Both the position numbers and the translations under genes were made by a program. The notes below the pieces were generated by a model, which was not told the DNA's origin, searched no databases, and saw nothing but the letters and a program-made list of their open reading frames with translations. Below are positions 25,998 through 47,900 of a stretch of DNA of 64,000 nt, piece after piece (within the stretch, counting starts at the first letter, position 1; each line of letters starts with the position of its first letter). Location: NCBI GenBank assembly GCA_006503475.1, contig RSEH01000159.1, positions 48,569 to 112,568 on the forward strand. Direction: 5' to 3'. Source of the stretch: Stentor roeselii (taxonomy: Eukaryota; Ciliophora; Heterotrichea; Heterotrichida; Stentoridae).

Positions 25998-28754
25998 TTA
26001 AGCTTTTCCGTCTGCATGGGCCGCTGCCATCGACCTTCGCGTCACGATGCTTCTCCTTGCGCCTCCTCTTTCGCCTGTGCTGAAGACGAGGAAAGTGTCA
26101 GTCAAGACAGCGCCTGAGAAGCCAGTTTCTTTGCCGTTCATTGAATAATAATAGTCGAAAGTGCGGAGTTCGATAACTTTAACGATGTCTTGAAGAACCA
26201 TGAAGACTAAGTTGAAGAACCAAACCCAACCTGCGAGACCCCAGGAGACGGATTTCATGTTTGGAAGTTTTCCGCTGTCTCCACCTCCTTCGTTCACGTC
26301 GAGGAACCAGTAGACTGACATTAAAGTTGCGGCGAATGTAGCGATTGCTGCGGCTGCTAAAAGGACTTTACCTGGAGTTCTTGTCCAGAACCAACTGTTT
26401 GTTCGTGCTGTGAAGACTGTCATGAAATCGGATAGTGAAACTTTTAGGTATACTGCTGTTAACAGCTCTCCATATTCAAAAGCTTCAATTCCAAAAGCAT
26501 TCAAAAACCCATTCGGATCATTTCCAACCATATTATCAAGTCCCACAAGTAAAAGAATCAACGAAGAAACAAAAGCGATTCCTCCTAAAGTGCAAGCATT
26601 GACATAAATCAAGAACAAGTTCCACCTATCAGGACTTTTGCTGACAGTGACCCTATCATAAGCGATAGAAATAATAGTCCCATCATTAAGCACAGTGATA
26701 ATGACCAGTGCGACGACAGGCAAAGAGAAGGTGTTAGGAACATCTTCACATCCACCGACTTGGTTGCAAGCATAGCTGCTGGGGTCAAGTGAGCACATTG
26801 AAATAAAGAAGAAAACAAGTAACTGAATAGTGCAAGCAATTCTATAAGTGCAGAAATTCTTCATTCTCTGGAAAATCTTACGCGCTCTGTAAATGGCTTC
26901 AATAATCACAGAGAGCCCAGCAGAGGTAAGGACGATATCAGCAGCTGCTCTTGCAGCATCAGTAGCTCCTTCCACAGCAATTCCAACATCAGCTTTTTTC
27001 AAAGCAGGGGCGTCATTAACTCCATCTCCAGTCATTCCAACTCTTTTTCCAAGGTCCTGAAGCATTTTAACAATAGCGAACTTGTGTTCAGGGAAGACTT
27101 CAGCGAATCCATCAGCTTCTTCAATGATAGTTGAGAGGTATTCACGTTGAACTGCAGTGGCTTCTTCACTGAGAAGTTCTGAGTTGAAGATTTTGTCTCC
27201 CATGTTTAAAAGATGAGCAGTTTCTTTGGCAATTGCGATTTGGTCGCCAGTGATCATCTTGACTTTGACTTCCATTTGAATGGCTTTGGCGATGGTTTCC
27301 TTAGTGTCGTCTCGGGGAGGGTCGTAAAGTGGGATAAGTCCAGTGAAGTGCCATTTTCCTTCAACGTCAGACCTGGCGACGCCGATGGTCCTGTAGCCTC
27401 TGCCAGCCAAGTCATTAACTTGATTCGTGACCATTTCTTCAATACTTGGCTCTTCAGCCATGGCTAAAATAACCTGAGGTGCTCCTTTAGTACATTTAAA
27501 AGTCGCTCCAGTTCGAGTATTTCTTACAGTCGCTTCAGTTCTTTTAATCTTCGGGTCGAAAGGAATAAAGTCTTCTTCTTCGTAGTCGTTGAAAGAAAGT
27601 CCACATTTGTGTATTGCGTATTCAGTGATGCACTTGTCAATCGCGTCTTGTGAGCCGATTTCTCGTTTACTTGCAAGTCCTGCATTCATGAAGATGTCTT
27701 GAACGGTGTGCTTCCCGATTAGGGTCGGGTTCTGAACGGTCAGTTCGTTTTTGGTCAGGGTTCCGGTCTTGTCGCTGCAGAGAACTTCCATCCCTGCGAG
27801 TTCTTCGATTGAGTTTAGACGACTCACAATTGCTTTTCTTCTTGCCAATGCGCGGGCTCCTACTGCCATTGTTGTTGAACAAACCACTTGCATTGCCACT
27901 GGAATTGAAGCCACTAAGATCACGACGCAAATTGAAAGGGTTTCTAGGAAATTGTTTCCTTTGCCGAGGACTACTCCGAAAATGATTGCGACGAGAACGA
28001 GTGAGATCACCATCAACACTGCTGTCACTTTTAAGATCACCTTTTGGAAGTTTCCTCTTTGGTTTACTTGGCCGACTAGTGATGAGGTCTTGCCGAAGAA
28101 TGTGTTGGCTCCTACTGCGATCACGATGCATTCTAAGTCACCTCGCTTGCAGACACTGCCTTGGTATACTGTGTCTCCTTCGTATCTTGTCACAGCTAAT
28201 GACTCTCCTGTTAGGGCTGCTTGATCGATTTCAGCATACCCAGGCCCAAGTCTCAAGTCAGCTGGAATAATATCTCCCAATTTAATTCCAACCCTATCTC
28301 CAATCACAACATTTTCCGAGTCAATAGAAGCCCAATTTCCATCACGTTTAACTTTCGCCTTAGGAGCGAGTGACTTTTTAAGTGCTTCAATGGCATTTCC
28401 TGCGTTTTTTTCTTCATTCCAGCCTACAAAACCGTTGATGAATTGAAGGAAAAGTAGAATAGCCAGATCAATAAAGGCTAACCGAATGAGCTCAATGATA
28501 ATCGCAATCCAGATCATGCCAGGCATCGGTCCCCAGTAGTAGCTCAAAAATTTAAGACAAGGGTTCACTTTTTTTTCAGGTAGTTTGTTCGGCCTATGTA
28601 AAAATTACCCGTCTCTTGCCAATCTCCGCTGAGCCTCTGAACTTGTAAGCCCTTCTGGACCTGTTTGAACTTCTGCCTCTACCTCAGGACTCAGTTTCTG
28701 TGCAGGTTTCCCGTGTTCCTCGTGCGAGTCTTCGAGCTTTTTGTAGTCACCCAT
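25998..28754 (-). CDS. P3A-type plasma-membrane proton-translocating ATPase (2 exons)
   Basis: Exon 1 (28754-28609) and exon 2 (28593-25998) give 913 residues. The N-terminus GLTSSEAQRRLARDGPNKLPEK is typical of P3A pumps. Catalytic motifs are complete: TGES in the A domain, phosphorylated Asp323 in SDKTGTLTKNE (codon 27771-27773), KGAPQ, DPPRDD, TGDQ and TGDGVNDAP. Membrane segment 6 keeps the Asn-Asp pair (VLNDGTI) used for proton binding in plant and fungal H+-ATPases. The C-terminal tail is Arg/Ser-rich (RRSIVTRRSMAAAHADG), fitting autoinhibition by phosphorylation. It should pump H+ out of the cell or into a vacuole and set membrane potential. A paralog at 44445-47156 lacks the catalytic residues. 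Confidence 0.96.
28594..28608 (-). other. 15-nt intron in active P3A ATPase gene
   Basis: Reads GTAATTTTTACATAG, A at position 10, phase 2 (GG|G glycine). Removal joins RRLARDG to PNKLPEK; retention gives GGG TAA. Confidence 0.94.
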
Positions 28755-43207: not shown

Positions 43208-44434
43208 ATGCCTATAATCAAAATGTCCCTAAAAAACTTCGAAATCCTGTCAAAACTAGGTGAAGGTTCCTACAGTACAGTCTTCCAAGTAAAGCGTTCA
43301 TCAGACAGCCAGCTCTACGCATTAAAAAAAGTCCGTCTTCACTCATTAAAAGAAAAAGAAAAAAGAAATGCCTTGAACGAGATCAGGATTCTCGCAAGTG
43401 TCGCCCACCCAAACATAATATCCTACAAAGAAGCCTTTTTCGACGAGGAATCTCGCAGTCTCTGTCTTGTGATGGAATTCGCTGACGGTGGCGACTTATA
43501 CCAAAAAATTCTTTCCTACCAAAAAAAAGGAGTTTACATGAGCGAGTCCTTTATTTGGAAGCTGTTAATCGAGTTGACAAAAGGACTGAAAGCTTTACAC
43601 GACATGGACATTTTGCATCGAGACCTGAAGTGTGCCAACGTCTTTTTAACCAACTCAGGAGGAGTCAAACTTGGAGACATGAACGTCTCGAAAGTAAGCA
43701 AGGATTGCGTCATGCACACTCAGACAGGGACTCCTTATTACGCCAGTCCTGAGGTCTGGAAAGATATTCCTTATGATTCCAAAAGCGACATGTGGAGTCT
43801 TGGGTGCGTTATTTATGAAGCCGCTACTCTTAAACCTCCCTTTCGTGCAGAAGACATGGAAGGACTTTATAGAAAAGTTATTAAAGGAGAGTTCAGCCCG
43901 ATTCCTAAAACTTTTTCTCATGAACTTCAAATGGTTATCAATGGACTTCTTCAGGTTAACCCTAATTATCGACTGAGCTGTTCTCAGGTCTTGTGTATTC
44001 CTTCTGTTGTCAGGCATATGTCTAGTCCTGCTGAAGACAGCGAGTTTTCTTTACTGCAGACTATCAAGTTTCCCAAAAATATTCAGAATATCTCGAAACA
44101 ACTCCCATTGCCGAAGTATATGGAAAATAAACCTGTTAGGAATAAAAGCACCATGATTCCTACTATTCGGAAAGATACTTTGATACCTAGGGATCAGAGT
44201 GAAACTAAAAGAAGAAATGTTTTGAATAAGGAAATTCTTGAGGTTCAGAAATCTAAGAAGAAGATTTTGAGTAGAGATGCTTCGAGTGCTGTTAAATTAC
44301 CACAGGTTGTTCCGAGGCATAAAAAACACTCGGCGAAAAGTTTAGCGTATAAGAATGACTTGATAAAACTAGAAAGCTATTTAAAGAAGCCAGCATCTAA
44401 CAGGAGTTTTTTATTAATGGCGAATTTAAACTAA
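43208..44434 (+). CDS. NIMA-related (NEK) protein kinase
   Basis: 408 residues. Kinase domain 11-265: GEGSYSTV (18-25), Lys40, HRDLKCAN (137-144), activation segment GTPYYASPEVW (174-184), followed by YDSKSDMWSLGCV. The DFG position reads DMN (157-159, GDMNVSKV), a form I know from protist NEKs, with the metal-binding Asp kept. The C-terminal 140 residues are basic and unstructured. NEKs regulate cilia length, basal bodies and mitosis; ciliates have expanded this family. Two start codons are possible (43208, 43223). The stop lies 10 nt from that of the convergent pseudo-ATPase. Confidence 0.94.
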   Translation: MPIIKMSLKNFEILSKLGEGSYSTVFQVKRSSDSQLYALKKVRLHSLKEKEKRNALNEIRILASVAHPNIISYKEAFFDEESRSLCLVMEFADGGDLYQKILSYQKKGVYMSESFIWKLLIELTKGLKALHDMDILHRDLKCANVFLTNSGGVKLGDMNVSKVSKDCVMHTQTGTPYYASPEVWKDIPYDSKSDMWSLGCVIYEAATLKPPFRAEDMEGLYRKVIKGEFSPIPKTFSHELQMVINGLLQVNPNYRLSCSQVLCIPSVVRHMSSPAEDSEFSLLQTIKFPKNIQNISKQLPLPKYMENKPVRNKSTMIPTIRKDTLIPRDQSETKRRNVLNKEILEVQKSKKKILSRDASSAVKLPQVVPRHKKHSAKSLAYKNDLIKLESYLKKPASNRSFLLMANLN

Positions 44435-44444
44435 TAATAAATAA

Positions 44445-47156
44445 TTACCCTGCAGCTAGATTCGACCTCTGGGTTAAGATGCCTTTCGAATAATTCAAAT
44501 GATATTGTTTCATAGATTCAACAAGGCACATCCGATTGATAGTCCAGTCTGAAAGATTGAAAGTAATTCTACTATAACTGATATGTATGCACATTTTCAA
44601 CAAGTCCTGAACAATAAAAATGATAAAACAAAAAGTCCAGACAATCAAAATTGTGTTCCAGTCAATACTGTGCATGCTAGCAACAACGACACTATTTTTC
44701 GGCTGAATATTTAACACCCAGTATTTACAAATAATAGTCGTTGTGCTTAAAGCAGTTAAACTCGTGATTCCCAGTTCGATTCCAGGCCTAGAGCAAAAGA
44801 ACCAAGTACTCGATCGAACCGAAAAAATCGTCAAATAATTCGAAATAGAAAGTTTAAGAAAAACAGCAGTAAGAACTTGACCATAAGAATAAGCAGGAAT
44901 CCGAAAATAGTCAAAAATGATATTCGGTTTGTGAGAATCCATATGAGAAAGCGCAACAAGTAAAAAAGCAAAAGAGGAAAAAAACGAAACCGCTCCTAAA
45001 GTACAAGAAATTATATAAATTTTTATCATGTTCCACTTGCAAGGCGCTTGGGAAGGACTAGCACGATCAGAAGAAATTGAAATAATAGTGATATCATTAA
45101 GTAAAGCAATAATAACCATTGCAATCACGGGAAAAGCTGAGGTATTCGGGACATCATCACAGTTCGACCCTCTGCACCTGAAGTCCTTTTTCGGGTTGAT
45201 AGCAGCGAGACTGATAAAAAAGAAAATAAGCAACTGACAACTGCAACTTATCCGATAAATGCAGTAAGTCTTCGCCCGGCGAAAGATTCTTCTAGCTTTC
45301 ACTGTAGCCTGATACAAAATATGCAGTCCAGGCTCTTCAAAAATAATATCAGCAGAAGACTTCGCTGCATCAGTAGCTTCAAACCCAGCAAGTCCAACAT
45401 CAGCTCTTTTAAGTGCAGGGGCATCATTGATAGAAACTCCAGTAATTCCTACTTTTTTCTCTTTTTTCTGCAGAAGTTTAACAATAGTGAACTTATGTTC
45501 CGGGTAAACTTCAGCGAATCCATCAGCTTGCATTAAAATTGAATCAAGAAGTTCTCTTTGAACAGTTGTCATATCATTATTAAACACTTCAGCATTAAAA
45601 ATCAAGTCACCCAGTCCAATATCATTTGAAATTTGTTTAGAAATCGCCATCTGATCTCCAGTTAAAAACAAAATTTTCACATTAAAGTCGCGAAGAGCTT
45701 TGATATCTTCTGAAACTCCTTCAAAAAAAGGGTCGAAAATTGAAATAAGTCCTAAAAAATCCCATTTTCCACTGTGACCTGATGCAGCAACTGCAATGAC
45801 GCTGTACCCTTGAGAAGCGAATTTAACTACTTGTGAAGTGACCTCGTCTTCCAAGTCCCAACTTTCAGTAAGTGCGAGGATGACCTGAGGAGCGCCTTTG
45901 CAGAACTTGAACATTTCTCCTGTCATTATATTTCGAACTGCGACTTCTGAACGTTTGATTTTCGGGTCGTATTGACAGTAGTCTTCTTCTTCGAAGTCTT
46001 CGAATGAAAGTTTCAAGTCGTTAACGGCGTATTCACAAAGACATTTGTCGATCGGGTTTTTTATGTCTCTTCGGCTTGAAAGGTAAGCAGCTTGAAACAA
46101 GTGAGAAATCGATTCACTTGAAATCAAAAAGTGACCGTTCACGACAGGCTCACCTTTTGTTAACATGAAAGTTTTATGAATGCAAAGAATTTCCATCGAG
46201 GCTAACTCTTCGATAGAAGCCAATCGACTTACAACAGTTTTTTTCTTGTTTAAACGATTAGCCCCAACAGCTAAAGTACTTGCACAAACAACTTGCATAG
46301 CAATAGGTAAAGAAAGCACAAGCATCACAACACTAGAGCTCAAACTTTCTAGAAATTCATTTCCCTTATACAGAAAAATGATAAGAATAATAGTAACCAA
46401 AATTCCTGAAATAATCATCAAAAGAAAAGCAACTCTTCCAAGAACCTTTTCAATATTTCCCTTCTGGTTAACTTCAGAGCTAAACAAATTTGACTTCCCA
46501 AAAAACGTGTTAGTTCCAGTTGCATAAACATTAGCTTCTACTTCTCCTTTCTTGCAAAGAGACCCCATGTAAAGTTTGTTTCCTTCTATTTTAAGGACTT
46601 GCTTAGTTTCGCCAGTCAGCATGCTCTGGTCCACTGAGCACTCGCCAGGTCCTAAGATGCAGTCAGCGGGAAGCAAATCTCCAGGGCCTATTTGAATTCT
46701 ATCTCCAGGAACCAATTCATTGACCCTGACCCTTTTCCACAGCAGGTCTCGTTTTACTAAAGCATGCGGAGCAAGACTTTTTTTTATCGTTTCCACTGCT
46801 GACCTTGATTTTTTATCTTGCAGATAAAGAACAAGCCCGTTCACTACTTGCAAAGCGATTAAAAAGCTCAGGTTTATCGGACTGACCCGGATTAATTCAA
46901 TTAAAGAAGCGATCCAGATCAAAACAGGCATCGGACCCCAAAAACATTTGAAGATTAGAGAAAGCTCGGATTTTGATGGCTCGGAAATCTCGTTTGGACT
47001 GATTGGATATTACCCGTGCTTTTGAAGACCTTGTTTTGCTTCTTCTGAAGTTAGACCTTCTTCGAGAAAGGTCCCGTCGCTTAGACCTGCTTGGCTTTGT
47101 GTGCGAGATGTACGGTGCTCTGGTTGGACTGGCTCCAGCAACTTTGTGGGGTCCAT
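44445..47156 (-). CDS. catalytically dead P3A proton-ATPase paralog (pseudo-pump, 2 exons)
   Basis: Exon 1 (47156-47014) and exon 2 (46998-44445) give 898 residues, colinear with the active P3A pump at 25998-28754. The phosphorylated Asp is His322: the motif reads IHKTFMLTKGE instead of SDKTGTLTKNE (codon CAT, 46176-46178). TGDGVNDAP is TGVSINDAP, losing the first Asp of the Mg site, and DPPRDD is DPFFEG. TGE(S/T), KGAPQ, TGDQ, the membrane-6 Asn-Asp (LLNDITI) and all membrane segments remain. It cannot form the phosphoenzyme, yet there is no stop or frameshift, so it is probably a constrained pseudoenzyme, for example a partner or regulator of the active pump. The C-terminal tail is short and lacks the Arg/Ser-rich region. 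Confidence 0.93.
46999..47013 (-). other. 15-nt intron in pseudo-ATPase gene
   Basis: GTAATATCCAATCAG, A at position 10, phase 2 within the Gly codon of KHG|PNE. This is exactly the position of the intron in the active paralog (RDG|PNK). Confidence 0.94.
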
Positions 47157-47165: not shown

Positions 47166-47900
47166 ATGGAAAAAGTTGACTGGAAGTTTGTGAAAGAGTT
47201 CCCTAGTCTTAGTACTGGGATTCAGTCTTCTTTGTCACCGAAAAGTGAAAAACTTAGCGCGTTCTTTAACCGTAAATCCGCTAATGAAAAACTCGTCACT
47301 ATTACCAATCGAGTCGCGAAACTTGAAAAACTTCGAGAAAAGGCCTTAAAAGAAGTTGAAGCTATCAAACACGATATATATCGAGAAAAAGAATTGATTT
47401 CTCAAAAAAACCAAGAAATCCAGAAAAAAAGAAGATTTTCTCAAGAAACTTTAGAAATTTTACAGCTAAAACGAGAAGCGAACTGGAAAGACCGAACCGA
47501 AAACAAGCAGAACATCCGAGACTTGACAGAAAAACAGTTAAAACTAAAGCAAAAGCTTGTACAAGACAAAAGAGAAAAAACCGCTATTTGGAAAGAAGAA
47601 GTCGAAAAAAAGAAAAATTTCGACTTACAGGAAAAAAACAAAAACTTCAAGAAAATCAAAACAGGTTACGTTAAGTCCTTAAGAGAAAGATGCCTGACTC
47701 AGCGACGTTACCGTTCGATGATAACCTCAGAATACGAAAACTCCATCGAACTAGAAAAACAACTGGAACAAGAAGCCTATCAAAAAATCTCATCACTCGA
47801 AAAAACCGAATCCACTCTAATCAGCCAACTTTCAAACACGATGCAAACCCAGCAAGTCCTCAAAGAAAAGCTCTTATCTCTTAAAACTCTTTCTCCATAA
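47166..47900 (+). CDS. coiled-coil protein of unknown function
   Basis: 244 residues from the ATG at 47166. An earlier in-frame start at 47091 would run through the neighbour's first exon and is not credible. Almost the entire length from residue 45 is Lys/Glu/Gln-rich coiled coil (LEKLREKALKEVEAIKHDIY, LKLKQKLVQDKREKTAIWK, then a C-terminal LEKTESTLISQL). No other domain. It resembles ciliary or centrosomal coiled-coil proteins, but no ortholog is recognised. Confidence 0.8.
   Translation: MEKVDWKFVKEFPSLSTGIQSSLSPKSEKLSAFFNRKSANEKLVTITNRVAKLEKLREKALKEVEAIKHDIYREKELISQKNQEIQKKRRFSQETLEILQLKREANWKDRTENKQNIRDLTEKQLKLKQKLVQDKREKTAIWKEEVEKKKNFDLQEKNKNFKKIKTGYVKSLRERCLTQRRYRSMITSEYENSIELEKQLEQEAYQKISSLEKTESTLISQLSNTMQTQQVLKEKLLSLKTLSP

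Follow-up and report, generated by a model that had tools for sequence, protein, structure and literature searches.

Many pseudoenzymes have been described in the kinase and phosphatase families, and we know of no pseudo-pump that occurs naturally as a free-standing protein among the P3A P-type ATPases, whose described members include AHA2 and the Pma1 proteins of yeast and Neurospora. Pma1 is described as a hexamer in which the C-terminal tail of one subunit binds the P-domains of its neighbours; activation is proposed there to spread round the ring, and D143 serves as the exoplasmic proton acceptor (PMC8575881). Degenerate P-type ATPase domains have been described in alveolates, namely in PfGC-beta (PMC6592433), and the C. 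elegans protein CATP-1 is presented as one that may have pump-independent functions, although another phenotype needs its pump activity (PMC11631496).

In this work we describe a gene located in a window of 64,000 nucleotides of Stentor roeselii DNA, where it is found together with an intact paralogue. It encodes an 898-residue relative of the P3A plasma-membrane H+-ATPase (hereafter, the pseudo-pump). The presence of a full-length sister with a destroyed ATP centre beside a normal proton pump suggests a job other than pumping.

Gene structure

The pseudo-pump is encoded on the minus strand, and its raw frame contains a single in-frame TAA (codon 49), which lies inside a 15-nt GT..AG stretch. 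Removal of this putative intron leaves 898 codons plus the stop codon and no other stops, so that the open frame reported in a preliminary description of this DNA was borne out once the intron was excluded. An intron of 15 nt, likewise with an A at position 10, interrupts the intact paralogue at the corresponding site (Table 1). We take tiny introns of this type and the use of the standard code in both P3A genes to be consistent with a heterotrich. The intron pattern was seen 11 times across the window against 9.5 expected, with no excess over chance; therefore, both introns are supported by the frame and by their common position, and not by the pattern. In the annotated introns of Stentor coeruleus the branch-point A is located at position 10 in 90.9% of cases (PMC9505925, section 2.1).

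A frameshift or mis-splicing was rejected, since the frame is open after one intron whose position is common with the sister gene. A base-calling error was also considered and rejected: seven of the nine residue-changing codons in the three broken motifs differ from the intact gene at two or three bases, and every one of these motifs has at least one such codon, which makes this type of error unlikely.

A divergent ORF on the plus strand (47166-47900), without Pfam match, has its start codon 9 nt from that of the pseudo-pump (47156, minus), which leaves room only for tiny promoters or for promoters that extend into coding regions. In three further pairs of divergent ORFs the distances are 23, 23 and 43 nt (18648/18672, 31033/31057 and 57669/57713), and some pairs are wider. 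A protein kinase ORF (43208-44434, plus strand) ends 10 nt from the pseudo-pump stop codon (44445, minus), so that both genes are convergent and nearly touching. The GC3 content is 42% in the intact gene and 35% in the pseudo-pump.

Table 1. Position of the two P3A genes, their introns and the motifs and residues of the pseudo-pump in the window
Feature	Position	Strand	Remarks
Pseudo-P3A gene	44445..47156	minus	ATG at 47156, stop 44447-44445; 898 aa after splicing; TIGR01647 match
15-nt intron GTAATATCCAATCAG	46999..47013	minus	A at position 10; location homologous to the intron of the intact paralogue
Asn90	46872..46874	minus	Asp91 in the intact paralogue (Pma1 D143, exoplasmic proton acceptor)
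TGET	46605..46616	minus	A-domain TGE motif, retained
HKTFMLT	46158..46178	minus	Replaces DKTGTLT; phospho-acceptor Asp is His322, codon 46176-46178
KGAPQ	45885..45899	minus	Nucleotide-binding motif, retained
DPFFEG	45717..45734	minus	Replaces DPPRDD; Arg gone
TGDQ	45651..45662	minus	Retained
TGVSIND	45423..45443	minus	Replaces TGDGVND; first Asp gone, final Asn-Asp retained
M5-M6 loop insertion	45141..45176	minus	Two Cys and DDVPNT; also in the intact paralogue, absent from 20/20 outgroups
M6 Asn682-Asp683	45093..45098	minus	AHA2 N683-D684, Pma1 D730; retained
C-terminal end ILTQRSNLAAG	44448..44480	minus	Resembles IVTRRSMAAA of the intact paralogue
Intact paralogue	25998..28754	minus	913 aa; DKTGTLT, DPPRDD and TGDGVND; TIGR01647 942.1 bits
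15-nt intron of the intact paralogue GTAATTTTTACATAG	28594-28608	minus	A at position 10

Loss of catalytic motifs

The three motif replacements and the histidine codon noticed in the preliminary description were all confirmed in the sequence, as was the retention of TGET, KGAPQ, TGDQ and the Asn-Asp pair of M6. Among the features of a functional pump, the acceptor Asp (His322 in the pseudo-pump), the first Asp of TGDGVND (Val569) and the Arg of DPPR (Phe473) are absent, and the proton-binding Asp of M6 is present (Asp683, AHA2 D684). In the numbering of the intact protein the losses include D323H, G326F, T327M, P475F, R476F, D478G, D572V and G573S. The Lys and the Thr that follow His322, the Lys of PEHK and N101 in M2 (AHA2 N106) are also retained. 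NDGT is changed to NDIT, Asn362 occupies the position of AHA2 D372, and V146, a gate residue of Pma1, corresponds to Phe93 in the pseudo-pump, against Ile94 in its sister. The acceptor Asp was found in the intact paralogue and in 20/20 P3A outgroups, and DKTGT in 25/25 bacterial locus ORFs (selected by script, duplicates counted). Judging from the family, a protein that has lost the acceptor Asp together with the Arg of DPPR and the initial Asp of TGDGVND should be unable to form the aspartyl-phosphate. Since these three motifs are broken, we infer from the family that a normal phosphorylation cycle should be impossible in the pseudo-pump.

The extent of the losses was assessed at 109 columns invariant in the 20 outgroups; the invariant residue was present at 99 of them in the intact pump and at 76 in the pseudo-pump. 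At the 99 sites invariant in the outgroups plus the intact paralogue, the pseudo-pump keeps 74 residues and loses 25. By count these losses were not concentrated in the seven classical catalytic motifs (8/25 sites, against 17/74 elsewhere; p = 0.43), whereas radical changes were enriched there (7/25 vs 5/74, p = 0.0099). For the three lost motifs alone the figures were 7/15 vs 5/84 (p = 0.0002), this set having been picked post hoc, after the data had been seen. The A domain is among the better-retained parts (33/42 conserved sites). A clean split between lost catalysis and retention of all else was rejected, because 17 of the 74 invariant sites outside the motifs are gone too; the initial statement that three motifs had been lost and the rest retained holds for the motifs, but the losses are not confined to them.

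Relationship to the intact proton pump

The pseudo-pump scored 667.7 bits against the NCBIfam model TIGR01647 (proton-efflux P-type ATPase), above the curated cut-off of 615.5; the scores of both copies were computed without the 48-49 residues preceding the intron. Together with the length of 898 amino acids, this agrees with the first assignment as a full-length proton-ATPase paralogue, and it carries a warning for annotation, since a curated model labels the pseudo-pump a proton-efflux ATPase. The Pfam HAD hydrolase profile gave 27.1 bits in the pseudo-pump vs 58.3 in its sister, and its best stretch started at profile position 52 (beyond the phosphorylation motif) in the former and at position 2 in the latter. 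No fused extra domain was found with Pfam at E 0.001, only P-type ATPase pieces being detected.

The two copies are 47% identical over 806 aligned positions and were recovered as sisters (support 100/100) in a tree of 22 P3A proteins. The outgroups were a small sample of 20 proteins, 17 of them bacterial and three eukaryotic, the latter as aligned fragments. The bacterial outgroups represent 17/25 locus ORFs, including the divergent L017 and L019; L004 and L008 (one truncated protein, present twice), L005-L007, L015 and L016 (identical to L001-L003) and L013 (833/845 residues as in L012) were left out. Since the duplication the branch of the pseudo-pump has become 5-17 times longer than that of the intact copy: the lengths were 1.82 vs 0.11 under LG+C20 PMSF, where the pseudo-pump was flagged as a long branch of odd amino acid composition, and 1.06-1.13 vs 0.20-0.21 under LG+G4 (twice) and LG+R4 (once). 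Both copies have the same residue in 225 of the 366 columns with an outgroup majority and differ in 141; in the latter, the majority residue is found in the intact copy in 89, in the pseudo-pump in 20 and in neither in 32. This indicates that most of the amino acid change occurred on the branch of the pseudo-pump.

Relatives were also sought in other collections. Two scans of a viral contig collection revealed no relative of the pseudo-pump, and a search of genome contigs provided four cyanobacterial P3A proteins (32-36%). At least 5000 plasmid records matched, 28 among the matches listed covering more than 80% of the query, whereas none of the 96 matching phage records did so. TIGR01647 had a match at E 1e-150 in nine of the 146 cyanobacterial genomes searched.

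Tests for selection on the pseudo-pump

Neutral evolution was simulated from the intact gene, which stood in for the ancestor, on the assumption that the sites changed after the loss of pumping. Under these conditions 25 invariant losses were reached at 0.138 substitutions per site with a mean of 13.5 stop codons, and the number of stop-free runs was 0/400 at 25 losses, 2/400 at 15 and 8/400 at 8; the actual gene has none of these stops. Frameshifts were absent from the simulation, which makes it conservative. With no stop-free run at 25 losses, free decay is unlikely, and unselected decay was rejected on these grounds.

The two copies are saturated for synonymous change (NG86 dS 2.3; 110/175 fourfold sites differ) and any value of omega is therefore rough. 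The pairwise maximum likelihood estimate, obtained from 781/898 aligned codon pairs with the ends excluded, was about 0.08 (0.05, the lowest value tried, to 0.15 within two log units), and omega = 1 was rejected (2dlnL 230.6). If the branch of the pseudo-pump accounted for one half of the dS from NG86 and for almost the whole dN (0.49), its own omega would be about 0.4 or less. Most of the change lies on this branch, yet omega for the pair is far below 1, and this was counted in favour of selection on the pseudo-pump. Neither a disabled frame nor, with the saturated dS, a ratio near 1 was found as in a pseudogene; catalytic residues have been lost and frame and predicted fold retained, as in a pseudoenzyme. 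The absence of stops, the omega values and the branch analyses all bear on the selective retention claimed earlier: selection seems to have preserved the frame once the motifs had been lost, and a freely decaying pseudogene is unlikely.

Predicted structure and features common to both copies

An AlphaFold2 model of the pseudo-pump, obtained from a 13-row alignment, had a mean pLDDT of 73.9 and a pTM of 0.69. Within the P-domain, whose limits we assumed from AHA2, 14 of about 17 ten-residue blocks reached a pLDDT of 79 or more and three were at 67-73; confidence was low at the first residues, in short stretches of the A domain, in the M5-M6 loop insertion, in a late loop and in the C-tail. The first six Foldseek matches of the model were P3A pumps. 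AHA2 (5ksd) was second by E-value and had the highest TM (0.82/0.84, rmsd 3.7) among the 50 matches listed. As modelled, the pseudo-pump retains the full-length P3A P-type fold, which comprises the A, N and P domains and the membrane part; such a model cannot reveal activity or inactivity.

Both copies contain in the M5-M6 insertion two cysteines followed by [DE]DVPNT. The spacing is C-x4-C in one copy and C-x5-C in the other, so that the second Cys alone is aligned. The C-terminal stretches ILTQRSNLAA and IVTRRSMAAA, picked post hoc, were matched as well in 8/2000 shuffles. The Cys loop and the end of the C-tail are candidate places to seek a partner. Both copies also have Gln at the position of AHA2 R655 and, in M1, a Trp where 20/20 outgroups have Glu, which indicates that the intact ciliate pump is itself unusual.

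Possible roles of the pseudo-pump

On balance we lean, with limited confidence, towards a real coding gene whose product is a P3A ATPase without catalytic activity, kept by purifying selection for a non-catalytic role. The sequences show that an ancestral proton pump was duplicated and that one copy remained little changed, whereas the other lost the Asp that accepts the phosphate, the Arg of DPPR and the initial Asp of TGDGVND. The sequence statistics indicate that purifying selection nonetheless continued to act on the latter copy as a membrane protein of full length; it would function without catalysis. The subunits of plasma-membrane H+-ATPase hexamers are reported to constrain their neighbours via P-domains and C-tails, and in the pseudo-pump the fold, the C-tail end and the P-domain are retained while catalysis is gone; for these reasons the role put forward as most likely, tentatively and at less than even chances, is that of a regulatory or assembly subunit in mixed oligomers with the intact pump, which may lower, gate or localise its activity. 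A dead subunit could keep the subunits next to it at rest, or it could determine how large the assembly becomes or where it is located. The dominant partner and the trafficking chaperone named in the preliminary description are candidate roles as well. The spread of invariant losses beyond the motifs, as expected of relaxed constraint, was counted against this explanation. At the seven helix-i contact positions of yeast Pma1, the pseudo-pump equals the intact copy at three and the intact copy equals yeast at one; most contacts of the yeast hexamer thus differ in the intact ciliate protein too, and the sequences speak neither for nor against mixed hexamers. Of eight segments compared between the copies, M7-M10, which contributes to the interface in yeast, has the lowest similarity (38%). 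That the ciliate proton pump is made of mixed subunits, with a dead P3A pseudo-subunit setting the activity or place of the oligomer, is a doubtful possibility.

The main rival of the partner role, in itself unlikely, is that the pseudo-pump works independently of its sister, serving as a receptor, as a scaffold in the membrane or as a platform for targeting. The retained Cys loop with DVPNT (called extracellular), cytoplasmic domains that could serve as docking sites, the well-kept A domain and the example of PfGC-beta, whose P4-ATPase domain is degenerate in another alveolate (PMC6592433), would fit it, but Pfam at E 0.001 revealed no domain fused to the P-type ATPase pieces. Neutral decay of a recently dead pump that has acquired no stop so far is improbable: it would account for the fast branch and for losses across all domains, and the eight stop-free runs apply if just the eight motif sites changed after death, but the 13.5 stops predicted at 25 losses are missing from the 898 codons and omega is far below 1 in a pair with most change on this branch.

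A passive or regulated proton conductance through the retained membrane path, the passive form of which was already suggested in the preliminary description, would make use of Asp683 and Asn101. This reading is weakened by Asn90 at the exit-side position of Pma1 D143, and the Phe93 gate residue and NDIT also count against it, which leaves it quite improbable. Retention of KGAP, TGD and TGE would suit an active enzyme with another phospho-acceptor (e.g. phospho-His322) or an ATP-binding sensor, but neither the first Asp of TGDGVND nor the Arg of DPPR is left, the small Gly near the acceptor is replaced by Phe and AHA2 D372 by Asn362, so that we give this very little credence. The gene is documented by a single sequence, which would fit an assembly or sequencing artefact; two- and three-base codon changes in each motif, an open frame with its intron and 47% identity to the intact copy make this extremely improbable.

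Comparison with known systems

In the open-licence literature, no natural pseudo-P3A pump was named in the titles or abstract openings among the matches listed. The initial view that no pseudo-P3A ATPase had been described in ciliates holds to that extent, but degenerate P-type domains are known in alveolates, as in PfGC-beta. The pseudo-pump would belong to a known kind, the pseudoenzymes of P-type ATPases. To our knowledge, if the mixed-subunit reading is true, it would be the first natural P3A pseudo-subunit and the first hetero-oligomeric P3A pump with a dead paralogue. If it does act together with the intact pump, it would provide a natural test of why P3A pumps are hexamers, in a cell amenable to microsurgery and RNAi.

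AHA2 and the yeast and Neurospora Pma1 (TIGR01647) are like the pseudo-pump in fold, length, domain order, TGE, KGAP, TGD, the Asp of M6 and the Asn of M2. In contrast to them, the pseudo-pump lacks the Asp to be phosphorylated, the Arg of DPPR and the initial Asp of TGDGVND, has Asn in place of the exit Asp, and contains an extra Cys loop that, among the compared proteins, is common only to its ciliate sister. CATP-1 is described as a relative of the Na+/K+ pump in which the Asp is present, its pump-impaired form being the engineered D409E (PMC11631496). In alveolate guanylyl cyclases, PfGC-beta in particular, a P4-ATPase-like domain is fused to the cyclase, whereas the pseudo-pump is of the P3A class and free-standing.
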